Source of the DNA: Shimia thalassica
GTDB lineage: Bacteria; Pseudomonadota; Alphaproteobacteria; Rhodobacterales; Rhodobacteraceae
DNA length: 64,000 bases
Direction: 5' to 3'
Assembly: GCF_001458215.1 (NCBI RefSeq)
Contig: NZ_CYTW01000001.1
Coordinates: forward strand, 1,240,001 to 1,304,000
A model generated the notes under the pieces. The model searched no databases. It worked only from the letters and a program-made list of their open reading frames with translations, and was not told the DNA's origin. A program made the position numbers and the translations under genes. Of the stretch, positions 28,574 through 38,280 are shown piece by piece (within the stretch, counting starts at the first letter, position 1; the number at the start of each line of letters is the position of its first letter).

Positions 28574-29149
28574 ATGCCAAAAACCGGAATGGAACCCTTG
28601 CGCCGCGCCGCGCTTGTTGATGCTGCGATTATTGAGATCGGGGCCGCACGGTCTCTGGACGTGACCGTAGCGCAAATTGCGCGCCGCGCAGGGATGAGCA
28701 GCGGTTTGGCTCATCACTATTTCGGCGGCAAAGACCAGATGCTTCTGGCGGCCATGAAACAAATCCTGTCAGAGTTTTCGCAGAAGATGTGCGCGGGCTT
28801 ACATCAAGCGAAAACGCCACGTGAACGGCTTGAGGCGGTGGTGCATGCGAACTTTGCCGATCATGTTTTTGATCGCAGCAAGACAAGTGCATGGCTCAGC
28901 TTTTACGGGTTGGCCCAAAGCAATGATCAGGCGGCGTATTTGATGCGCATATACCAACGCCGGTTGCGATCAAATTTGCTGTTTGACCTGAAAACCCTGA
29001 CCCCGTGCGCCGACGAAATCGCGGCCGCGCTGGGCGCGCTGATTGACGGGGTTTACCTCAGAGCGGCGCTTACAGGAGCCGGCCCTGATCCCAAAGCGTC
29101 AGAAACTGTTTTGATGACCCTGAATGCCCTGCTTGGAGACACGCAATGA
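28574..29149 (+). CDS. betI: Transcriptional repressor BetI (TetR family)
   Basis: This 191-residue choline-sensing repressor has the near-invariant BetI start (MPKTGMEPLRRAALVDAAI) and the helix-turn-helix VAQIARRAGMSSGLAHHYF at about residues 32-50. The ligand domain follows (for example ANFADHVFDRSKTSAWLSFY). It overlaps the betC start by four bases, so repressor and sulfatase are co-made. A 28-base palindromic operator lies directly upstream. The usual betB and betA genes are not adjacent. Confidence 0.93.
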   Translation: MPKTGMEPLRRAALVDAAIIEIGAARSLDVTVAQIARRAGMSSGLAHHYFGGKDQMLLAAMKQILSEFSQKMCAGLHQAKTPRERLEAVVHANFADHVFDRSKTSAWLSFYGLAQSNDQAAYLMRIYQRRLRSNLLFDLKTLTPCADEIAAALGALIDGVYLRAALTGAGPDPKASETVLMTLNALLGDTQ

Positions 29150-30654
29150 ACAAACCGAATATTCTGATTTTTATGGTGGATCAGCTAAACGGCACCTTGT
29201 TTCCCGATGGGCCGGCAGATTGGTTACATGCGCCGAACCTCAAAAAACTGGCCGCGCAATCCACGCGGTTTCAAAATGCCTATACGGCAAGCCCCCTGTG
29301 TGCACCGGGACGGGCCAGCTTCATGTCAGGGCAATTGCCCAGTGCCACCCGTGTCTATGACAATGCGGCCGAGTTTGCGTCGTCGATCCCGACATATGCA
29401 CACCACTTGCGGCGGGCCGGTTACCAGACCTGTTTGTCAGGAAAGATGCATTTCGTCGGGCCGGATCAGTTGCATGGTTTCGAAGAACGCCTGACCACTG
29501 ATATTTACCCGCCAGATTTTGGCTGGACGCCGGACTATCGCAAACCGGGCGAGCGGATCGAATGGTGGTATCACAATATGGGCTCTGTAACGGGCGCCGG
29601 TGTTGCCGAGATTTCCAACCAGATGGAGTTCGATGACGAAGTGGCCTATCACGCGACGCGCAAGGTTTATGATCTGGCGCGCGGGAAAGATGAACGCCCG
29701 TGGTGTCTCACGGTGAGTTTTACCCATCCCCATGATCCTTATGTGGCGCGGCGCAAATACTGGGATCTTTATGAAGAGTGTGAACATCTTCAGCCAACGG
29801 TCCCCGCCATTCCTTATGAAGATCAGGACACGCATTCAAAGCGGATTTTTGACGCCAACGACTGGCGCTCTTTTGAGATTACAAACGACGATATCCGTAA
29901 ATCCCGACAGGCCTATTTCGCGAATATCTCGTATCTTGATGACAAGATCGGCGAGGTGCTGGAAGCATTGGAAAGCACACGGCAGGAAGCCATCATTCTT
30001 TTCGTCAGCGATCATGGCGACATGTTGGGGGAACGAGGTCTGTGGTTCAAAATGTCTTTCTATGAGGGATCTGCGCGTGTGCCCTTGATGGTGTGTGCCC
30101 CGCAAATGGCACCGGGTCTTGTCACGACGCCGGTCAGTAACATCGATGTCTGTCCAACACTGTGCGATCTGGCGGGGGTGAGCATGGAAGAGGTGATGCC
30201 GTGGACCAGCGGCGAAAGCCTTGTGCATTTGGGGCAGGGAGGCGAACGCACCAGCCCTGTCGCGATGGAATACGCCGCCGAAGCCTCTTACGCGCCGATG
30301 GTGTCGCTGCGCTATGGAAAATGGAAATACAATCGCTGTCTTCTGGATGAGGAGCAATTATTCGACCTTGAAAACGACCCTCACGAGCTGACCAACCTCG
30401 CGACCGTGGACGCGCATCAAGGCACGTTGCAAACGCTTCGCGCAAAATCAGAGGCACGGTGGGACCTTGAACGGTTCGATGCCGACGTCCGTGAAAGTCA
30501 GGCGCGCCGGTGGGTGGTCTACGAAGCCTTGCGGCAGGGCGGATATTTTCCTTGGGATTATCAACCCTTGCAACAGGCGTCCGAGCGGTACATGCGCAAT
30601 CACATGGACCTCAACGATGTTGAAGAAAACCAGAGGTTCCCGCGCGGTGAGTGA
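29146..30654 (+). CDS. betC: Choline-sulfatase
   Basis: This 502-residue type I sulfatase converts choline-O-sulfate to choline and sulfate. The catalytic formylglycine derives from Cys52 in SPLCAPGRASFMSGQLP (CxPxR motif); metal ligands appear in ILIFMVDQLNG (Asp12) and FVSDHGDMLGERG. The C-terminal extension (YFPWDYQPLQQASERYMRNH) distinguishes choline-sulfatases from other sulfatases. No signal peptide is present, so the enzyme is cytoplasmic and depends on uptake. The product choline feeds betaine synthesis or catabolism and the sulfate is a sulfur source. Confidence 0.93.
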   Translation: MNKPNILIFMVDQLNGTLFPDGPADWLHAPNLKKLAAQSTRFQNAYTASPLCAPGRASFMSGQLPSATRVYDNAAEFASSIPTYAHHLRRAGYQTCLSGKMHFVGPDQLHGFEERLTTDIYPPDFGWTPDYRKPGERIEWWYHNMGSVTGAGVAEISNQMEFDDEVAYHATRKVYDLARGKDERPWCLTVSFTHPHDPYVARRKYWDLYEECEHLQPTVPAIPYEDQDTHSKRIFDANDWRSFEITNDDIRKSRQAYFANISYLDDKIGEVLEALESTRQEAIILFVSDHGDMLGERGLWFKMSFYEGSARVPLMVCAPQMAPGLVTTPVSNIDVCPTLCDLAGVSMEEVMPWTSGESLVHLGQGGERTSPVAMEYAAEASYAPMVSLRYGKWKYNRCLLDEEQLFDLENDPHELTNLATVDAHQGTLQTLRAKSEARWDLERFDADVRESQARRWVVYEALRQGGYFPWDYQPLQQASERYMRNHMDLNDVEENQRFPRGE

Positions 30655-30657
30655 CGC

Positions 30658-31389
30658 TTAGGTCTTGGGCGAAACGATGCGCAGAAAAAGGCGGCGCGGC
30701 AGATAGCGTCCAAAGCGAAACAGCCACGAAAACGGGGCAGGGAAAGCCGTAGAAACCCTGCGCCTGCGTATGGCTTTGACGACATGTTCTGCGGCCTGTT
30801 CGGGTGATTGCAGAAAGGGCATGTCAAACGTGTTCTTTTCCGTCAGCCGCGTCTTGATGAAGCCGGGGTTTACGACACGGACCCGCAAGTTGGTTTTGCG
30901 AAAATCGGCCTCGAGGTTTTCCCCAAGGTGCATCAACGCGGCCTTGGATGCGCCATACCCGATGGCACCGGGCAACCCCGAATAGCCCGCCAAAGACCCG
31001 ATAAGCACGATCGTGCCAGAGTCTCGCCGCTTCATGTTGGGAACAAGGCGGCCCAGAACCCTGAGCGCGCCCATGAAGTTGCTGTCGGCCATGGCTTCAG
31101 CGCTGTCTGCGTTCCAGTTCAGCGCCGACATCGGATCATACTGACCCACGCAATAAATCATGCCGTCGACCTCGCCCAGCTGGGTAGTGGCCGTGGCGAC
31201 GTCTTTAGACGAGGACACATCCATTACAACGGCGGTTGCATTTGAAAGGTCTTGCGTCAAGGTTTCAAGGCGTTGGGCATTTCGGGCAGACACAATGAGT
31301 TCGGCCCCCAACCCGTCGAGGTGAAGCGCCAAAGCCCGCCCCAAACCTTCGCTTGCGCCAACAATCCACCAGGTTTTGCCTTCGAACAT
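30658..31389 (-). CDS. Short-chain dehydrogenase/reductase, last gene of the RpoE-linked operon
   Basis: This 243-residue Rossmann-fold oxidoreductase has the nucleotide motif GASEGLGRALALHL (residues 11-24), the catalytic Ser in LIGSLAGYSG and the Tyr-Lys pair in YGASKAALMHLGENL. The C-terminus is basic and hydrophobic and may touch the membrane (FSWLFRFGRYLPRRLFLRIV). It is the seventh gene of the operon divergent from the sigma factor, one base after DUF3833. An SDR closes the equivalent singlet-oxygen-induced operon of Rhodobacter sphaeroides (from memory). Substrate unknown, possibly a lipid-derived carbonyl. Confidence 0.85.
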   Translation of the reverse strand: MFEGKTWWIVGASEGLGRALALHLDGLGAELIVSARNAQRLETLTQDLSNATAVVMDVSSSKDVATATTQLGEVDGMIYCVGQYDPMSALNWNADSAEAMADSNFMGALRVLGRLVPNMKRRDSGTIVLIGSLAGYSGLPGAIGYGASKAALMHLGENLEADFRKTNLRVRVVNPGFIKTRLTEKNTFDMPFLQSPEQAAEHVVKAIRRRRVSTAFPAPFSWLFRFGRYLPRRLFLRIVSPKT

Positions 31390-31390
31390 A

Positions 31391-31939
31391 TCAGTTTCCA
31401 GCAGGGCGCATTGTGGCGGTCAATTCGGCCACTTTGATGCCGAATTTGCGTAATTCCGAACGGTTGAGCAACGTGCCGTTCTCCATCAGATACAACCAGT
31501 CGGTCACGTCCAGAACATGACCGCCTGCATTTTCGGGAAGCCGGATGCGATAGGTCATCGATAGGGTTGCGCCGGAAACCTGTCCTTTGGCAAGGCCGAT
31601 AATATCATCGGCGGTGGCCGTAAAATGGCCGTCTTCTTTCAAGGTCAGGTTCCACAATCGTTGTTGGGTGCCCCCATTGGCATAGGTGAAGTTTTCGGCC
31701 AGCGTGCCCGTGTTTCCATCCCAGGTTCCATGCATCTCGGCCACAAATCTCGAGACCATGCGCCCGCGCAGATCATGGATCATACCCTCAGAGATGATCG
31801 GGCCGCTAAGATGGGTTTTCATGTCAAATTCCGGCGCGGTCCCACCATAGTGAGACGGGCGTTGGCTTTTAAAGCCGAACCCCGGGCGCAGGATGGATAA
31901 TGCCAGCAGAACCAATAGGATAATAAGAAACAGTTTCAT
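31391..31939 (-). CDS. DUF3833 family lipocalin-like protein
   Basis: This 182-residue protein has an N-terminal hydrophobic anchor or signal (MKLFLIILLVLLALSIL) and then beta-rich sequence with GTAPEFDMKTHLSGPIISEG, MVSRFVAEMHGTWDGNTGTL, WNLTLKEDGHFTATADDIIG and VLDVTDWLYLMENGTLLNRS, characteristic of DUF3833. The fold is expected to resemble lipocalins that hold fatty acyl chains, fitting a role in membrane-lipid modification. Function is unproven. It overlaps the MFS gene by four bases. Confidence 0.82.
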   Translation of the reverse strand: MKLFLIILLVLLALSILRPGFGFKSQRPSHYGGTAPEFDMKTHLSGPIISEGMIHDLRGRMVSRFVAEMHGTWDGNTGTLAENFTYANGGTQQRLWNLTLKEDGHFTATADDIIGLAKGQVSGATLSMTYRIRLPENAGGHVLDVTDWLYLMENGTLLNRSELRKFGIKVAELTATMRPAGN

Positions 31940-33150
31940 GGGTACGAGACCTCTTTGGGCATACGAAGAACAAGGGCAATGGCGACAAATTTCACAAGGC
32001 AGGGCACCACGGCATAGGCGAAGCCAAGCGCATTGAGCGCTTGAACCGAGTTGTTTGAGCCGGGTTGAAATCCGGCCAGATCAAGCAGCGGCAACAAGGT
32101 TGCAGCGGCCAAAGCAAGGGCGAGCTTGCCAGCGAAAAACCAAAGACCAAATGCCTGTCCCGCCTGAAGACCCGCGCGTTCCAGCGTGGATGAAAACAGG
32201 ACGGGCAGGATGACCATATCGGCCCCGAGTGCGGCACCTGATCCGATGCACACCAAAGCAAACGCAAAAGCATCCCCTGATTGAAGCAGGGCCGCCCAGA
32301 AAAAGCACAGGATTGCCAACGCCATCGCAGGCAAAAGAACCTGCCGCACACCAAATCGACCACACAGATGTGTCCAGACCGGAACAGACAGGCCCGCCGA
32401 CACAAAAAACAGCACCAGAAACGCGCCTGACATTCCGGTCAGGTTCAGTCGGTCTTCAACAAAGAACAGGAACAGGGTCGACGTCATCGCAACCGGCAAG
32501 GCGTTCACCAGCGCGAGAAGCAAAAGATAGCTGCTGCCCGATTGGCGCAGGCCCGAAAACGTCAGCTTGCCTGCCTTGGTGCTGGCACTGGTCCAAAGCG
32601 GGCGTGCCATGTGCCAGACGATCATGCAAAGCACCGCAAGGGAAACGCCAAATGCAGCATATCCGCTGGTGCCGGTGAGCGCCGCAAAGATGATCGGGGC
32701 CAGCGCCGCCAGAATAACGCCGATCAAAGCGCCAGCCTCGCGAAACCCTGCAAGCCGGATCATCGATCCATCGTTTTGCGCCAGGGCGGTGCTTTGGCTG
32801 TAAAACAGGATCGCGCCAAGACTGTAGGAGGTGAAAAGTAAGATCAGGGTGAGGCTGACCCAAAGCACAGGCTGGATCAGCGGAGGCACCGAGAACAACA
32901 ACAAGAAGCCCGTTCCCATGCCCAATGTCGCGAGGGCTGCAAACGTCGCATTTGCAGAAGGAAACCGGTCTACAAACCACCCGAGCAGCGGGTCCTGCAC
33001 GAAATCCATCACGCGCAAACCAATGAGCAACGTGCCCACAACCGAAAGGCTCAGACCCAGTTCTGTTGTGGCAAATCGCGGCAAGTGGATATAGAGCGGC
33101 AGGCTGGCCGCAGCCAACATCATCGAAAAAAGGGCGACGCGCGGGTACAT
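31936..33150 (-). CDS. MFS transporter of the GPH (Na+/melibiose symporter) type
   Basis: This 404-residue inner-membrane protein has about twelve helices. The start YPRVALFSMMLAAASLPLYI and the block LRVMDFVQDPLLGWFVDRFP match GPH transporters, the latter being their loop 2-3 signature. Despite the sugar-symporter name, its place in an operon of fatty-acid-modifying enzymes suggests transport or flipping of a lipid-related compound. It shares one base (TAATG) with the preceding gene. A GPH-type transporter occupies the matching position in the R. sphaeroides operon. Confidence 0.85.
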   Translation of the reverse strand: MYPRVALFSMMLAAASLPLYIHLPRFATTELGLSLSVVGTLLIGLRVMDFVQDPLLGWFVDRFPSANATFAALATLGMGTGFLLLFSVPPLIQPVLWVSLTLILLFTSYSLGAILFYSQSTALAQNDGSMIRLAGFREAGALIGVILAALAPIIFAALTGTSGYAAFGVSLAVLCMIVWHMARPLWTSASTKAGKLTFSGLRQSGSSYLLLLALVNALPVAMTSTLFLFFVEDRLNLTGMSGAFLVLFFVSAGLSVPVWTHLCGRFGVRQVLLPAMALAILCFFWAALLQSGDAFAFALVCIGSGAALGADMVILPVLFSSTLERAGLQAGQAFGLWFFAGKLALALAAATLLPLLDLAGFQPGSNNSVQALNALGFAYAVVPCLVKFVAIALVLRMPKEVSYP

Positions 33151-33665
33151 TACTGTCCCTTCAACCTCGGTCCAAGGCGGGCAATCCGGCTGTCGCCGGA
33201 CAACCAGATTCCAAGGAACCTTTTCTGGATGTTCTGAAAGCCGAGATCACACAGCCTGATGCTGTTTTGATAGAGGCTCAGCCTGTTCGGAGAAGTCGAC
33301 ACCGCGACCACGCGATCACCGGGTTTGACCTCGCGGTAACAGTCAGCCAGCGCGGTTTGAAGTGCCGGCGTGTCATTGCGCGTGCCTTCGACGCGGATGA
33401 TCTCTTTCATCGTGGCCTCTAACAGTTGGCCCTTTGCAAAACCACGGCGGTACGTCAGTTCAAGCGCCATCGGCGCGTTCCATTCAAAAGCCTGCGCTTT
33501 GGGCGTGAATACAGCCGCCTCGTAAATGGGCACGCCGAGCCAACGAATGGTCGCCTCGCCCAGACGTTCAGCTTCCCCCAGACCGGCCCGCTCGAGATCG
33601 GGCCGCGCATGTCCCAGCGTGGGAAGTGCGAGTGCAAGCGCTGCGATCAGGAGCCCTTTACGCAT
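33150..33665 (-). CDS. Exported chalcone-isomerase-like domain protein
   Basis: This 171-residue protein begins with a signal peptide (MRKGLLIAALALALPTLGHA, residues 1-20). The mature part has RWLGVPIYEAAVFTPKAQAF, MALELTYRRGFAKGQLLEAT, ADCYREVKPGDRVVAVSTSP and FLGIWLSGDSRI, the blocks of the bacterial chalcone-isomerase-like domain. These proteins lack the plant catalytic residues, and related folds bind fatty acids. It probably acts in the periplasm on the modified lipid or as a fatty-acid carrier. The ATG at 33665 follows an 8-base overlap with the methylase gene. Confidence 0.8.
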   Translation of the reverse strand: MRKGLLIAALALALPTLGHARPDLERAGLGEAERLGEATIRWLGVPIYEAAVFTPKAQAFEWNAPMALELTYRRGFAKGQLLEATMKEIIRVEGTRNDTPALQTALADCYREVKPGDRVVAVSTSPNRLSLYQNSIRLCDLGFQNIQKRFLGIWLSGDSRIARLGPRLKGQ

Positions 33666-34815
33666 GAGCCAATTCCACTTGCACCACATCGGTCTGGCCG
33701 ACGGCAAATGTGCCCGCACAGAGCTCAAGATAGTATTTCCAGTTTCGCTGAAAGGACGAGTCATGCCCCAAGCCCGCGATTTTCGGGGCCATGGCATTCA
33801 GCCGTTCGGCCCAAATCCGGCAGGTCCGCGCATAGTCCTGGCCAAATGCAAAGTTGTCTTTGACCACCAGCCCCGATTTTGCAGCCTGATCCCGTATTTG
33901 TTGCGAGGACAGAAGCATCCCACCGGGGAAGGTGTATTGGCGTATATAGTCAGAGTTGCGCCGGTAAGTCTCGAAGTAGGAATCTTCAACGGTGATCGCC
34001 TGAATGACGGCGCGCCCGTTTTGAGCAAGGCGTTCTTTCAGCATGCCGAAATAGGTGGGCCAGTACTTCTCGCCGACCGCTTCGATCATTTCGATGCTGA
34101 CGATGTTGTCGAACGTGCCATCGGTTTTGCGATAGTCTTGCAAACGGATGTCGGCCCGCCCGTCAAGGCGTGCATCCGCGTAACCTTTCTGGCTTGGCGA
34201 AATTGTAATACCTGTCACATGACGGCCCTGTTCGGCAGCGCGTTCCGCGAACCCGCCCCAGCCGCATCCGATTTCAAGAACGCCTTCGCCGTCGCCCAAG
34301 CGATCCAGAATACGGTCGTATTTGCGGTTTTGTGCCCGTTCGAGATCATTGTCCCCTTTTGCAAACAGGGCTGACGAATAGGTCATGCCCGAGTCGAGCC
34401 AAAGTTGGTAAAACTCGTTGCCCACATCGTAATGGGACCGGATATTGCGCGATGATCCACGTACCGAGTTGCCTCGCAGGATACGGTCAACCGCGCGGAA
34501 TTTCAGAGTGTTAAGCAGGCCGGGACGTGCGAAGGTGCCCAATGCATCGCGGTTCTTGAGCGCCACAGTGATCAGGGTTTCGATCGATGGGGAATCCCAG
34601 AGACCGGCCACATAGGTCTCGCCAAAGCCGACATCTCCACGGGCCGCGATGGCCGTGATCGCGGACCAGTCGTTGATCTGCAACTCGGCTTGCGGCGATC
34701 CGGTGCCAAAGTCGTGAATTTCGCCTTCCGGTGTCAGCACCCGCAAGCTTCCATGGCGCAACCCTTCACACGTGTTAAGGAAATCGTGCTTCAAGTGTTT
34801 GGTAATGAATTTCAT
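33658..34815 (-). CDS. Cfa-family SAM-dependent fatty-acyl methyltransferase (UfaM-like)
   Basis: This 385-residue membrane-associated enzyme acts on phospholipid acyl chains. The SAM site is EIGCGWGGFAERA (residues 181-193), and family motifs SHYDVGNEFYQLWL and YTFPGGMLLS are present. Two bicarbonate-binding residues of E. coli cyclopropane synthase are changed: Cys139 corresponds to Ser148 (MTYSSAL) and His266 to Gln272 (VIQAIT). This favours formation of a methyl-branched unsaturated chain, the first step to furan fatty acids, rather than a cyclopropane ring. The ATG at 34815 overlaps DUF1365 as ATGA. Confidence 0.85.
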   Translation of the reverse strand: MKFITKHLKHDFLNTCEGLRHGSLRVLTPEGEIHDFGTGSPQAELQINDWSAITAIAARGDVGFGETYVAGLWDSPSIETLITVALKNRDALGTFARPGLLNTLKFRAVDRILRGNSVRGSSRNIRSHYDVGNEFYQLWLDSGMTYSSALFAKGDNDLERAQNRKYDRILDRLGDGEGVLEIGCGWGGFAERAAEQGRHVTGITISPSQKGYADARLDGRADIRLQDYRKTDGTFDNIVSIEMIEAVGEKYWPTYFGMLKERLAQNGRAVIQAITVEDSYFETYRRNSDYIRQYTFPGGMLLSSQQIRDQAAKSGLVVKDNFAFGQDYARTCRIWAERLNAMAPKIAGLGHDSSFQRNWKYYLELCAGTFAVGQTDVVQVELAHA

Positions 34816-35570
34816 GAGCTGACCTCTTGCTTTGGCGGGGTGGGGCGGGGCGTAAACGGCGCGCCTTTCAGTTTCAGGATAAGAGCTTGCCAGTGGATCA
34901 GGGCAAGAATGCGAATGGCCCATGCGGGGCGACGTATTCCGGACCACAGCAGCCCGAGATTTCCAAGGCGCGTCCGCTTGCCCGAAAGGGTTGCAATGAC
35001 CCCTTCCGACCCGTTTCCGTGTTTGATGTGGATCGCGATTTTTGAGGGTCGGATATCAAAACGAAAGCTGTAGGTGCCCGCAACCTTCTGGAAGGGCGAG
35101 ACGTGAAACACCTTTTGTGCCTCGATCTGGTCCTCTGGTGTGAGGGGGGCAAAATCGGGCAAGTGACAAAGATAGCTGTGCCTGTCTCCAAAGGTGTTGT
35201 TCACTTCGGCAATCACGGCCAGAACGTCTTGGTTCTGCATCGCGATCCAGAAGCTGACCGGATTGAAAACATGCCCGAGGACCGTGGGTTGTGTCAGCAG
35301 CAAAACCTGCTTGTCACCGTCTATGGCAAGGCCTGCCTTGGTGAACACCTCGACGGCCCAGGCAAGGCCTCTGCCGTCGCCTCGGGTTCCGCCGTGGTTG
35401 CGGTCATGAACAGAGGCAAGGTTGAACCGGTTGCGCGAAAACAGGGCGGGGCCCTGACGCTCGGTCGGGTCGATCAGCACATAGTCGATGCCATAGGTGA
35501 ACCGATGCCCGACCGCGCCCTTGCGAATGTGGGTTGTCGTACCCGCGATATGTTCCGGCCAGAAAGTCAT
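34812..35570 (-). CDS. DUF1365 family protein (furan fatty-acid/cyclopropane-associated)
   Basis: This 252-residue protein begins MTFWPEHIAGTTTHIRKGAV and contains VGHRFTYGIDYVLIDPTERQ, TQPTVLGHVFNPVSFWIAMQ, EVNNTFGDRHSYL and VFHVSPFQKVAGTYSFRFDI, all diagnostic of DUF1365. The family regularly pairs with a flavin amine oxidase and a Cfa-like methylase. In R. sphaeroides the homologous RpoE-controlled gene has been linked to furan fatty-acid formation (from memory). The ATG at 35570 gives the family N-terminus and overlaps the amine oxidase as ATGA. Confidence 0.85.
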   Translation of the reverse strand: MTFWPEHIAGTTTHIRKGAVGHRFTYGIDYVLIDPTERQGPALFSRNRFNLASVHDRNHGGTRGDGRGLAWAVEVFTKAGLAIDGDKQVLLLTQPTVLGHVFNPVSFWIAMQNQDVLAVIAEVNNTFGDRHSYLCHLPDFAPLTPEDQIEAQKVFHVSPFQKVAGTYSFRFDIRPSKIAIHIKHGNGSEGVIATLSGKRTRLGNLGLLWSGIRRPAWAIRILALIHWQALILKLKGAPFTPRPTPPKQEVSS

Positions 35571-36856
35571 GCGGCGATGCGGGTTTTGAGGGCATCCATT
35601 CCGCGTGCCACACGGGCGGCGCTGGCAAATCCATCTTCGTGAAAGCCGTTGCGCAACCAAGCGCCGGTGAACCATGTGGCGTTGGCGCCTTGCATGCTGG
35701 CGATTTTGGTCTGGGCGCGCATCGCGGCCCGATCAAATATCGGATGACGGAAGGTGTTCACGTCATAAATCATGTCATCCCGAACGGTTTTCGTCGGGTT
35801 CAGGGAAATGAACATCGGATCGCTTTCCGGGATATTCTGAAGGCGGTTCATCCAGTAGGTCACGCCAACGGCAGGGTTCTGGGGGCTGCCGGACGTGCGA
35901 TAGACCCAGCTGCTCCAACAGGCGCGGCGTGCCGGCATCTGGTCCATGTCGCGGTGCAGGATGACTTCGTTGTCCTGAAAGCGAACATCGCCCAAGGCCT
36001 GTTTCTCGTCAGCGGTCGGCTGGGCCAAAAGGCGCAACGCCTGATCCGGATGACAGCCAAAGATAACCTGATCAAACCGCTCGGCCCCAAACCGTTCTGT
36101 CTGGATCGTGGCCCCGAACCCGTCACGGATCACCGTCTGAACCGGCGTATCGTCGCGCATCCGGCACCCCAAGGTTTCAAGACGCGCTGTGAGGCGGCGA
36201 ACGTACTCGATGCTGCCCCCTTTAACGGTCCACCATTGGTGCTGTTTGCGCGACAAAAGAGAATGGTTGGCAAAGAAACGCACCAGCGTGCGGGCGGGAA
36301 AATCGCGAACGCCCTCGGTCGGGGTCGACCAGATCGCGCCACAGATGGGCAGCAGATAAAACCGTTCGAACCAGTCCCCCAGGCGCAGTTCTTTGACCAG
36401 ATCTGCGATGGTCACATCATCGGATTTGGCCACTTCCTCTGCGCGCGCATTGAACGTCATGATATCGCGTACCATCCGGTAAAATTCCGGCCGCATCAGA
36501 TTGCGCCGCTGCGCGGTCAGCGCGTTGATGCTGTAAAGGGCATACTCCAGAGCTCCGTCATCTGCCGAGACGCCAAAGGTCATGTCACTTTTCGCGAGGG
36601 GTACATCAAGGTCGCGAAACATCGATGTTAAGTGCGGATAGTTGACGTAGTTGAAAACGATAAATCCGGTATCAACAGGCCTGTTTCCATCAAGCCCCGC
36701 GTGCACAGTGCGTGCGTGTCCACCAAAGCGCGGCTCTGCCTCGAACACAGTTACATCATGCTGTGGTGACAGCAGATAGGCTGAAGCAAGGCCCGAAATT
36801 CCGCCGCCGATAATGGCGATCTTTTGTCGGGTCGGGAACGGGGCATCAAACGACAT
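35567..36856 (-). CDS. FAD-dependent amine-oxidase-like protein, first gene of the RpoE-linked operon
   Basis: This 429-residue flavoprotein has the FAD-binding motif KIAIIGGGISGLASAYLL (about residues 12-29) followed by FEAEPRFGGHARTVHA. Conserved segments FIVFNYVNYPHLTSMFRDL and FYLLPICGAIWSTP belong to the branch associated with DUF1365 and Cfa-like methylases, thought to desaturate or oxidise methylated acyl chains. The ATG at 36856 has AAGGAG seven bases upstream; the much longer open frame is spurious. A TGATCC-N18-TATCC element begins 52 bases upstream. Homologues act in furan fatty-acid synthesis in R. sphaeroides. Confidence 0.85.
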   Translation of the reverse strand: MSFDAPFPTRQKIAIIGGGISGLASAYLLSPQHDVTVFEAEPRFGGHARTVHAGLDGNRPVDTGFIVFNYVNYPHLTSMFRDLDVPLAKSDMTFGVSADDGALEYALYSINALTAQRRNLMRPEFYRMVRDIMTFNARAEEVAKSDDVTIADLVKELRLGDWFERFYLLPICGAIWSTPTEGVRDFPARTLVRFFANHSLLSRKQHQWWTVKGGSIEYVRRLTARLETLGCRMRDDTPVQTVIRDGFGATIQTERFGAERFDQVIFGCHPDQALRLLAQPTADEKQALGDVRFQDNEVILHRDMDQMPARRACWSSWVYRTSGSPQNPAVGVTYWMNRLQNIPESDPMFISLNPTKTVRDDMIYDVNTFRHPIFDRAAMRAQTKIASMQGANATWFTGAWLRNGFHEDGFASAARVARGMDALKTRIAA

Positions 36857-36880
36857 GGAAACTCCTTCTGTTTTGAAAGG

Positions 36881-36908
36881 GATACGCGCCCTCGTCGAAA
36901 ACGGATCA
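36881..36908 (-). promoter_or_regulatory. RpoE (singlet-oxygen ECF sigma) type promoter for the lipid operon
   Basis: On the minus strand TGATCC (complement of 36903-36908) is followed after 18 bases by TATCC (complement of 36880-36884). The -35 is the exact R. sphaeroides RpoE consensus and the -10 keeps the leading TA. The predicted start leaves a short leader holding the AAGGAG ribosome site. Confidence 0.65.
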
Positions 36909-36981
36909 CTTGCGGCGGGAATAATTTCGCAATTATTTTTTCGGCTGTTTTGATTGCCATGAAAAAAGCCGAAGATTTTTG

Positions 36982-37010
36982 TGATCCAATGTGTGCTGGC
37001 CTGCGTAAAA
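36982..37010 (+). promoter_or_regulatory. RpoE-type promoter for rpoE-chrR (autoregulation)
   Basis: TGATCC at 36982-36987 and TAAAA at 37006-37010 are separated by 18 bases, the same layout as the divergent element. The -10 differs by one base from the TAAGA consensus. Autoregulation of rpoE-chrR is known in R. sphaeroides. Confidence 0.68.
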
Positions 37011-37015
37011 GAAGC

Positions 37016-37648
37016 ATGTTGACCACAACGACACACCCAACTGAGGCGCGAACCGTGCCCGCCGCGCGACGCAGCCCGCTTAAGCCAGAGACGGGTCTGG
37101 ACGCAGTGTCCGAGCAGACGCTCTGGCTCATGGCCGTGCGCGATAGGCAGGACCGTCAGGCATTTGTAAACCTGTTTGACTATTTTGCGCCGCGTCTGAA
37201 GGGCATGTTCATCAAATCCGGCCTGTCGGCGGCACGTGCGGAAGATATCATTCAAGACACCATGCTGAATGTCTGGCGCAAGGCGCATCTATTTGATCCG
37301 CACCGTGCCCAAGCGACGTCATGGATCTATCGCATCGCGCGCAACCGGCACATTGATGTGTTGCGCCGTGAAAACAGACCCCTTCCCGAAGAGTTGAAGA
37401 TAGAAGATCAGCCTGCCGAGGATGCCAGCCAGATTGTTGCGCTGGAAATGGAAACAGAAAAACTGCGCAGCGCCTTGATGCGTCTGCGTCCGGAACAAAG
37501 AGAATTGGTCGAAAAGGCCTACCTTGGGGAACTTAGCCACAGCGATATTCAAGCTGAGACAGGTTTGCCACTCGGGACAATCAAATCACGTATTCGGTTG
37601 GGGATGGAACGTCTCCGCCATGAAATGAAAGCCAACACCGCATCATGA
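37016..37648 (+). CDS. rpoE: ECF RNA polymerase sigma factor (RpoE of the RpoE-ChrR singlet-oxygen response)
   Basis: This sigma factor of about 210 residues has region 2 (FVNLFDYFAPRLKGMFIKSG; AEDIIQDTMLNVWRKAHLF; SWIYRIARNRHIDVLRRE) and region 4 (LRPEQRELVEKAYLGELSHS followed by TGLPLGTIKSRIRLGMERLR). It overlaps chrR by four bases, the standard pairing. The start is ambiguous: the ATG at 37016 follows the -10 by five bases, so the message may be leaderless or start at a later codon, while an upstream ATG at 36959 would lie before the promoter. It should drive both this operon and the divergent lipid operon when singlet oxygen inactivates ChrR. Confidence 0.9.
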   Translation: MLTTTTHPTEARTVPAARRSPLKPETGLDAVSEQTLWLMAVRDRQDRQAFVNLFDYFAPRLKGMFIKSGLSAARAEDIIQDTMLNVWRKAHLFDPHRAQATSWIYRIARNRHIDVLRRENRPLPEELKIEDQPAEDASQIVALEMETEKLRSALMRLRPEQRELVEKAYLGELSHSDIQAETGLPLGTIKSRIRLGMERLRHEMKANTAS

Positions 37649-38280
37649 CTTCAATTCGTCATCATATCCCCGAAGACATTCTCGCGTCTTATGTGTCAGG
37701 GTCCCTGAGCTATGCGTTTTCTCTGATCGTGGCCAGTCACATATCCCTGTGCAAAGACTGTCGCGCCCGTCTTGAAACGCACGAAGCCGTTGGCGGAGGC
37801 CTTCTTGAGGCGACCAAGCCGGCGCCTGTGTCTGCCGATCTTCTGGACAATGTGCTCGGCGCTTTGGATGCACCGTTCGAGGCACCCCGAACCTTTGCGC
37901 GTCAGGGACCATTGCCGGGACCCGTTGTCGAAGCCCTCGGAGGCAAGCCACCGGTCTGGCGCAGTCTTGGCATGGGGATTGGTCAATGCGTGTTGCAACG
38001 CAGCAAAAACCAATCCGTGCGGCTTTTGTCGATCCCCCCGGGACAGGCTGTGCCCGACCACGGTCACCGTGGTCTGGAACTCACGCTTGTTTTAAAAGGT
38101 GCCTTTTCGGACGAGACGGGTCATTTTGGTGTGGGCGATCTTGAGGTCGCGGACGAGCATCTCGAGCACACTCCCATGGCTCTGGAAGGTGAAACCTGTA
38201 TTTGTCTTGCTGCAACGGATGCAAGGCTGAAGTTTAACGCCTTTGTTCCGCGTATGTTGCAACCGGTTTTGGGAATTTAA
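37645..38280 (+). CDS. chrR: Zinc anti-sigma factor ChrR (cupin)
   Basis: This 211-residue cytoplasmic anti-sigma factor holds RpoE until singlet oxygen appears. The N-terminal zinc anti-sigma domain has His6/His7, His32, Cys36 and Cys39 (SHISLCKDCRARL). The C-terminal cupin has His139, His141, Glu145 and His175 (VPDHGHRGLELTLVLKGAF; EHLEHTP). These are the four cupin zinc ligands of R. sphaeroides ChrR shifted by two positions, so both zinc sites look intact. The start overlaps rpoE as ATGA. The stop overlaps the convergent LysR gene by four bases. Confidence 0.92.
   Translation: MTSIRHHIPEDILASYVSGSLSYAFSLIVASHISLCKDCRARLETHEAVGGGLLEATKPAPVSADLLDNVLGALDAPFEAPRTFARQGPLPGPVVEALGGKPPVWRSLGMGIGQCVLQRSKNQSVRLLSIPPGQAVPDHGHRGLELTLVLKGAFSDETGHFGVGDLEVADEHLEHTPMALEGETCICLAATDARLKFNAFVPRMLQPVLGI

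Follow-up and report, generated by a model that had tools for sequence, protein, structure and literature searches.

A probable RpoE-ChrR-controlled furan fatty acid operon in Shimia thalassica, with an operon-borne methylase lineage and a chalcone-isomerase-like protein

The formation of furan fatty acids (FuFA) has been worked out in two organisms. In Rhodobacter sphaeroides, vaccenoyl chains are first methylated by UfaM (RSP2144); UfaD (RSP1091) then desaturates the methylated product, and UfaO (RSP1090, a DUF1365 protein) inserts an oxygen derived from O2 (PMC7380195). Single deletions of RSP1087, RSP1088 and RSP1089 left the fatty-acid profile of this organism without detectable change, and the genes RPA2569-2571 (ufaM, ufaO, ufaD) of Rhodopseudomonas palustris were reported to be necessary and sufficient (PMC7380195). 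The RSP1091-1087 operon of R. sphaeroides lies upstream of rpoE-chrR and RpoE promoters precede both (PMC3818230). Its furan lipid genes are needed for the turnover of ChrR upon singlet oxygen, and such genes form part of a conserved core regulon that is also present in non-photosynthetic species (PMC6852236). Here we analysed the corresponding locus of Shimia thalassica, at positions 30658-38280 of a 64,000-nucleotide stretch of contig NZ_CYTW01000001.1 (the window).

This locus is very probably an RpoE-ChrR-controlled, singlet-oxygen-induced FuFA operon, judging from its sequence and from analogy with the published systems. The gene content, promoter sites, family membership, ChrR ligands and methylase phylogeny on which this builds were observed directly. 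Nine open genes were found, each with an ATG start and a single stop in the open reading frame (ORF) check, together with two promoter-like sites:

37016-37648, + strand: rpoE, ECF11-type sigma factor (Pfam Sigma70_r2/r4, ORF check; start codon uncertain)
37645-38280, + strand: chrR, zinc anti-sigma factor with a cupin-like domain (TIGR02451, 200 bits against a cut-off of 124.5)
36982-37007, + strand: putative RpoE-type promoter site facing rpoE, TGATCC-N16-CGTA (exact pattern)
36883-36908, - strand: putative RpoE-type promoter site facing ufaD, TGATCC-N16-CGTA (exact pattern)
35567-36856, - strand: ufaD-like flavin amine oxidoreductase, RSP1091 counterpart (PF01593 E=2e-20, position, order)
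34812-35570, - strand: ufaO-like DUF1365 protein, RSP1090 counterpart (PF07103 E=2.7e-63)
33658-34815, - strand: ufaM-like S-adenosylmethionine (SAM) methylase (CMAS) of the operon type, type A (PF02353 E=7.8e-74, tree)
33150-33665, - strand: chalcone-isomerase-fold (CHI-like) protein with an N-terminal signal-like sequence (PF16036, AlphaFold model, Foldseek)
31936-33150, - strand: MFS_2 (GPH/MelB-type) transporter of the major facilitator superfamily (MFS), RSP1089 counterpart (PF13347 E=2.2e-38)
31391-31939, - strand: DUF3833 protein, RSP1088 counterpart (PF12915 E=1.5e-55; model)
30658-31389, - strand: short-chain dehydrogenase (SDR), RSP1087 counterpart (PF00106 E=1.7e-37)

The rpoE-chrR pair reads rightward and the seven other genes read leftward from 36856 to 30658 in the order ufaD, ufaO, ufaM, CHI, MFS, DUF3833 and SDR. 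Neighbours overlap by 4 bases (ufaD/ufaO), 4 (ufaO/ufaM), 8 (ufaM/CHI), 1 (CHI/MFS) and 4 (MFS/DUF3833); DUF3833 and SDR are separated by 1 base, and rpoE and chrR overlap by 4. The first-pass annotation, made from the letters alone, had described this divergent arrangement, the named families and neighbours overlapping by 1-8 bases or lying one base apart, and our coordinates and Pfam/NCBIfam assignments agree with it exactly. Chance clustering or misannotation was rejected, as the gene order recurs in other genera and classes. The window holds a member of the UfaO family (PF07103) and, upstream of ufaO, one of the UfaD family; together with the UfaM-like methylase these make up the complete enzyme set that had been proposed. 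The FuFA pathway itself is already published, and the central proposal of an RpoE-induced FuFA operon, which follows established work, is well supported rather than novel. The observation was exact and its main interpretation sound; calling the locus a special, self-contained module overstated the case, for three enzymes suffice for the furan lipid and the RSP1087, RSP1088 and RSP1089 deletions were each silent.

Control by RpoE-ChrR, also proposed at first, is supported by the predicted zinc ligands of ChrR and by the two divergent sites. The window ChrR carries H6, H32, C36 and C39 in its anti-sigma domain and H139, H141, E145 and H175 in its cupin domain at the zinc-ligand positions (assigned by motif and position), these being the eight ligands listed in PMC6852236. 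Being a ChrR family member beside an ECF sigma factor, it has the make-up of an ECF11 RpoE-ChrR switch. The putative TGATC-type promoter in front of rpoE would be autoregulated; since it ends 8 bases 5' of the ATG called for rpoE, the start codon of that gene is uncertain. We compared 43 loci, that of the window among them, in which rpoE and ufaD diverge: a TGATC[CTA]-N18-TA site precedes rpoE in 41 and ufaD in 37. The fetched loci, which are related to one another and overlap in part, total 2.9 Mb; over this length TGATC[CT]-N16-[CT]GTA gave 189 matches, against 7-30 for spacers of 12-15 and 17-20.

By analogy with the published systems, from which each enzyme step and the ChrR feedback are transferred, singlet oxygen (or an organic peroxide) would lead to the loss of ChrR, and free RpoE would then fire both divergent promoters, giving more RpoE-ChrR together with the ufa products. 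UfaM would methylate the cis-vaccenoyl chains of phospholipids, UfaD would desaturate the product, and UfaO would add an O2-derived oxygen and so close the furan ring; the furan would in turn be destroyed by singlet oxygen. Because the furan genes of R. sphaeroides are also needed for ChrR turnover, the operon would be part of its own switch.

The gene order is not special to this strain and recurs in many other bacteria. We searched 198 Rhodobacteraceae genomes (one per genus code, the family being judged from named relatives of the window), which gave matches to UfaO in 171, ChrR in 163, UfaM in 190 and CHI in 19. The nine genes have exactly this layout in G070, G075 and G073 (L112-L114) and in L271, as well as in two named metagenome-assembled genomes (MAGs), one of Pseudophaeobacter (L143) and one of Rhodovulum (L148). 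All nine genes are present but rearranged in L116, L119 and L121-L124, and G005 (L110) has the seven genes with no rpoE-chrR beside them. A further set of named loci comprised the best 80 of at least 585 confirmed, picked by methylase (ufaM) similarity and including several MAGs. Here ufaM comes directly after ufaO in 65 of 80, and the full seven-gene order is found in 18 of 80 from several proteobacterial classes, including Herbaspirillum, Glaciimonas, Duganella, Zoogloea, Dechloromonas, Janthinobacterium, Facilibium and a Francisellaceae genome. Section 8 of PMC3818230 describes homologues of RSP1089-1087 as restricted to Rhodobacteraceae; in Betaproteobacteria and Gammaproteobacteria too, ufaM is followed by genes of these families in the same order, which contradicts this restriction. 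Given its spread, the seven-gene order would be the older form and that of R. sphaeroides a reduced one. A UfaO scan of viral contigs found no relatives.

The methylase of the window is of a different lineage from that of R. sphaeroides. The first-pass annotation placed the latter apart, beside a photolyase, and we see just this in the R. sphaeroides-like genome G051, whose methylase (L127) stands directly behind a photolyase gene with an RpoE-type site in front, and in the named relative Luteovulum azotoformans (L197), which has the same pair and site. The Shimia genome holds a second CMAS gene (C1:1861048-1862175, L108), 42% identical to the window methylase; both are open. Its surroundings (SufS-like, cysteine synthase and MscK-like genes, named by eye) are those of the G051 methylase and not those of the window. 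In a methylase tree of 115 rows, rooted on E. coli Cfa and built by a quick search with one support measure, G051, L197 and the second own-genome copies fall in a 14-row clade (support 97), 11 of whose loci hold a photolyase gene. The window copy belongs to a 45-row Rhodobacteraceae clade (98) that is nested in one of 63 rows (99). Neither clade nor synteny makes the window methylase an orthologue of R. sphaeroides UfaM (RSP2144); because of its separate clade it is, on this tree, a paralogue. We refer to copies at least 58% identical to that of the window as type A (the next best in the family set is 49%) and to the R. sphaeroides UfaM lineage as type B. Type A is present in 39 of the 190 UfaM-bearing family genomes. 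A move of the methylase from the photolyase to the operon was ruled out by the tree and synteny, the genome having both copies; what had been taken for simple relocation beside ufaO is a paralogue, and the syntenic UfaM counterpart lies elsewhere in the genome.

Both types share their active-site changes. As in R. sphaeroides-type UfaM, the window methylase has serine for C139 and glutamine for H266 (E. coli Cfa numbering), and among 113 methylases of both types the H266 position is glutamine in all 113 and the C139 position serine in 104 and alanine in 9. We take Cys139 and His266 of E. coli Cfa to form its bicarbonate site. The changes fit a putative non-cyclopropane chemistry shared by both types.

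In S. thalassica, the 18-kb locus around the type B gene contains neither a photolyase nor an exact RpoE-type site; the sequence closest to such a site has 2 mismatches and a shorter spacer. We surveyed 40 regions with stand-alone type B methylases, 20 from type A genomes, 18 from genomes without type A and 2 from intermediate genomes, whose copies are 51-52% identical and both photolyase-linked. In this convenience sample, chosen since coordinates were already listed and so not random, and with p-values that ignore relatedness, a photolyase adjoins type B in 7 of 21 genomes with type A (own L108 added) against 16 of 18 without (Fisher 0.0008); for an upstream RpoE-type site the counts are 6 of 21 and 11 of 18 (p 0.057). 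Four genomes of the window's genus stood outside the survey; in three of these there are additional methylase matches, fragmentary or diverged. These figures hint at a regulon that retains a single methylase under RpoE, which may be of type A or type B. The strain would make FuFA with its type A methylase, the R. sphaeroides-type copy not being driven by RpoE.

It could instead be type B that makes the 11-methyl intermediate, with the window copy doing another job such as a second methylation like that of R. palustris FufM. This is improbable, even though both copies are present and open and type B is the syntenic, tree-supported counterpart of the assayed R. sphaeroides UfaM. The direct succession of ufaO and ufaM in most named loci (which were chosen by methylase similarity) speaks against it, as do the active-site changes common to both copies. 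FufM, moreover, is reported to be 26% identical to R. sphaeroides UfaM (PMC7380195), while the window copy is 42% identical to type B.

Further methylase arrangements were noted alongside these. A third, weak CMAS match of the S. thalassica genome (C4:290336-290665, L109; 34 bits) may represent either a furan methylase of the FufM kind or a methyltransferase without relation to it. At L131 (G018), ufaD-ufaO are followed by a very diverged methylase (39% identity) without the otherwise conserved Glu239, which may be losing or changing its function. A photolyase gene lies directly upstream of ufaD-ufaO-ufaM at L130, L171, L181, L183, L185, L187, L201, L208 and L216, a second operon type, from which the photolyase-ufaM pair of R. 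sphaeroides may have come.

Some observations weigh against an RpoE-driven FuFA operon with type A as its methylase. We infer the activity of type A, as the assayed operon-borne RPA2569 of R. palustris is not among the rows of the tree. The genome also has a second rpoE-chrR pair, which leaves a choice of acting RpoE. Although 14 exact RpoE-type sites were found in the genome (none with the reversed pattern as control), base composition alone predicts about 7, and of the 12 sites outside the locus, 5 lack a nearby gene start that convinces; several are therefore probably chance matches. For the other 7, a plausible gene start follows at 47-103 bases. In favour of the operon reading, three of these starts belong to folE2, a fasciclin-domain gene and a gene of the sigma-70 family (rpoH-like by eye), and the listed RpoE targets of R. 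sphaeroides include folE2, fasciclin and rpoHII (PMC7074977). Further sites precede genes for glutathione peroxidase, a member of the Shewanella RpoE2 regulon (PMC4336711), DUF3095 and a SPOR-domain protein (start uncertain). Another, at C2:665858 (L319), lies 57 bases before the gene of a 169-residue secreted-looking protein without a Pfam match.

The second rpoE-chrR pair, at about C1:331907-333150 (L107), has a ChrR 53% identical to that of the window with the same zinc motifs by eye, and adjoins SDR, TetR-like regulator and branched-chain-type ABC transporter genes (named by eye); its 18-kb locus holds no exact RpoE-type site. The L319 gene lies a few kb from two photolyase-family matches.

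Furan lipids made under light and oxygen had been proposed for this strain. The core of this proposal is well supported; light stress must, however, come via sensitizers other than a photosystem, since the genome has no match to the reaction-centre family PF00124. Three photolyase-type matches (PF03441) are present. Among the 198 family genomes, 83 have reaction centres: 2 of 39 type A genomes against 81 of 159 others (raw Fisher 3.5e-8), and none of 19 CHI genomes against 83 of 179 others (raw Fisher 2.6e-5). We placed 56 of these genomes on a UfaO tree, along which the two traits undergo 6 and 4 changes. A tie between FuFA operon type and photosynthesis was set aside, as an independent-pairs test on this tree gives it no support, and we make no claim of such a link.

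The least understood part is the CHI-like protein that travels with the pathway, which is predicted to be periplasmic from a signal-like N-terminal sequence recognised by eye. Alone, it matches PF16036 at E=0.0025, below the family cut-off, and its family does better, with all 35 aligned members (window included) matching at E<=0.01 and the best at 3.3e-15. The AlphaFold model (predicted local distance difference test, pLDDT, 92.6; predicted template modelling score, pTM, 0.85) has the CHI fold, with Foldseek matches to chalcone isomerase (5wl4, E=4e-8), AtFAP1 (4doo, E=4.6e-6) and Aim18p (8ew8, E=5.5e-6). A search of PDB sequences with the CHI profile gave no matches at E<=1, and a single-protein scan of genome contigs found no relatives. 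The word 'chalcone' does not occur in the available parts of PMC7380195, PMC9758184, PMC4336711, PMC10012899 and PMC8465259, which is no proof that the association is unpublished.

The DUF3833 protein has an N-terminal helix; in its relatives, a simple motif finds a lipobox instead in at least 16 of 67. The model of the protein (pLDDT 95.1) combines the helix with a ten-stranded barrel that matches nitrobindin best (E 1e-4), other nitrobindins and nitrophorins, and also Ycf58, described as fatty-acid-binding-protein-like (E 5e-4). The best PDB relatives of the MFS_2 protein are the melibiose carriers MelB (E=1.9e-5). A second, diverged DUF3833 gene lies slightly downstream of the first at L095, L117, L122, L155 and L156 (lipoprotein-like in L155).

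Envelope ligand-binding folds beside a transporter suggest the binding or moving of a furan lipid, of what its oxidation yields, or of a photosensitiser. As a conjecture, the CHI-like, MFS and DUF3833 proteins would most likely act together on such a ligand as an arm of the pathway in the envelope. A more specific version is less likely than not: a periplasmic CHI-like protein, MFS_2 and a membrane-anchored, nitrobindin/lipocalin-like DUF3833 protein, regulated by RpoE as a unit with the furan enzymes across alpha-, beta- and gammaproteobacteria, might bind furan acyl lipids (or a photosensitiser) or carry them between the membranes.

It is doubtful, though conceivable, that this arm binds or exports a porphyrin or haem photosensitiser and not the furan lipid. 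CHI-domain proteins of yeast and other fungi bind haem, the two from yeast showing no binding of fatty acids (PMC9996372), nitrobindin is the best fold match of DUF3833, with nitrobindins and nitrophorins among the others, and Shewanella RpoE2 controls a ferrochelatase paralogue (PMC4336711). The lack of a PF00124 match likewise makes porphyrins plausible sensitizers. The CHI model, however, is about equally similar to the yeast hemoprotein Aim18p and to two fatty-acid binders of plants, AtFAP1 and AtFAP3; Ycf58 is among the DUF3833 matches, and no haem-ligand residue was established. As proteins of the CHI fold bind fatty acids in plants but are hemoproteins in fungi (PMC9996372), we do not choose a ligand for the CHI-like protein.

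The accessory genes could also be passengers, kept by operon inertia and without a role in furan lipids, which we likewise hold to be unlikely on balance. The silent single deletions in R. sphaeroides favour this, and 179 of the 198 family genomes have no CHI match. CHI is present in 34 of the 80 named loci and there directly follows ufaM in 34 of 34, which argues for more than inertia; these loci were fetched via ufaM, and CHI genes elsewhere are invisible in that set. Because fetching by methylase biases the neighbours, we also searched by CHI first. In the 19 family genomes found in this way, CHI adjoins ufaM in 13 and MFS in 18, the latter again telling against mere passengers. In a class-wide draw of 385 alphaproteobacterial genomes, 37 had a CHI match. 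At 37 further alphaproteobacterial CHI places, 12 adjoin ufaM and 17 MFS; 16 have none of ufaM, MFS, DUF3833 or ufaO beside CHI on the same strand, which is in favour of passengers and means that the CHI family is wider than a FuFA role. Neighbours at three of these 16 were cytochrome bd genes, a porin and an ABC transporter.

Promoter sites also bear on the passenger question. Eight relocated CHI-MFS pairs with no ufa genes in front were counted (L087, L089, L091, L264, L265, L273, L276, L277), leaving out L093 (CHI without MFS) and L095, L097 and L283 (within ufa operons). Five of the eight have their own TGATC[CT]-N16-[CT]GTA site at a distance of 50-123 bases upstream, while 12 other spacers gave 0 or 1 apiece, which speaks against inertia; one of the five (L276) is in the window's own genus. 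No RpoE-type site precedes CHI in L093 or where CHI adjoins DUF3833 only (L272, L274, L278).

A bacterium without a photosystem most likely makes light-protective furan lipids when singlet oxygen appears, and many relatives have more parts than the model strain. Two UfaM lineages exist and either can sit in the RpoE regulon; these lineages and the CHI-MFS-DUF3833 arm deserve attention. The role of the accessory genes, unanswered by the R. sphaeroides single deletions, becomes testable, best in a strain with the CHI-like gene. If the envelope arm carries lipids, bacterial CHI-fold proteins would gain a physiological role, in lipid handling, and R. sphaeroides would be a reduced case that lost CHI and had its operon methylase replaced by the photolyase-linked one. 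To our knowledge, this would be the first physiological role for a bacterial CHI-fold protein. At 28574-30654 of the window, a TetR regulator (Pfam) and a sulfatase-like gene (by eye) converge with the operon end, with no sign that they belong to the operon.

The closest described system is that of R. sphaeroides, whose RSP1091-1087 and rpoE-chrR likewise combine ufaD, ufaO, a GPH-type symporter, a hypothetical protein and an SDR with RpoE promoters both ways (PMC7380195, PMC3818230, PMC7074977). The R. sphaeroides-like G051 has the order ufaO-MFS-DUF3833-SDR, while the window has ufaM and the CHI-like gene between ufaO and MFS; the CHI-like gene is not in the R. sphaeroides operon. The R. sphaeroides-type ufaM (RSP2144, phrA-ufaM), unlike that of the window, belongs to the other methylase clade and lies behind a photolyase. 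In R. palustris, RPA2571-2570-2569 similarly keep ufaD-ufaO-ufaM together; this organism also has FufM (RPA0924), a step not identified in the window, and the available part of its source (PMC7380195) does not mention the CHI-MFS-DUF3833-SDR part, with no occurrence of 'chalcone' or 'DUF3833'. The LitR/PplR cluster of Pseudomonas (phrB, SDR, FAD oxidoreductase, ufaM) also has a light-induced ufaM with oxidoreductases (PMC9758184), under LitR/LOV control and not RpoE-ChrR. The RpoE2-ChrR regulon of Shewanella oneidensis (SO_3386-SO_3374, phrB, cfa) shares TGATCC...CGTAAT promoters and a cfa-like gene (PMC4336711), although its operon lies apart from rpoE2-chrR and includes a photolyase. Finally, Aeromonas salmonicida has the same enzyme families adjacent (SDR, FAD oxidoreductase, DUF1365, cfa, DUF2878), and in Erwinia amylovora cfa adjoins a DUF3833 lipoprotein (PMC10012899 and PMC8465259, cited jointly for both). 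These two clusters differ in having no furan-lipid function assigned in the available parts of those papers, where 'chalcone' does not occur.

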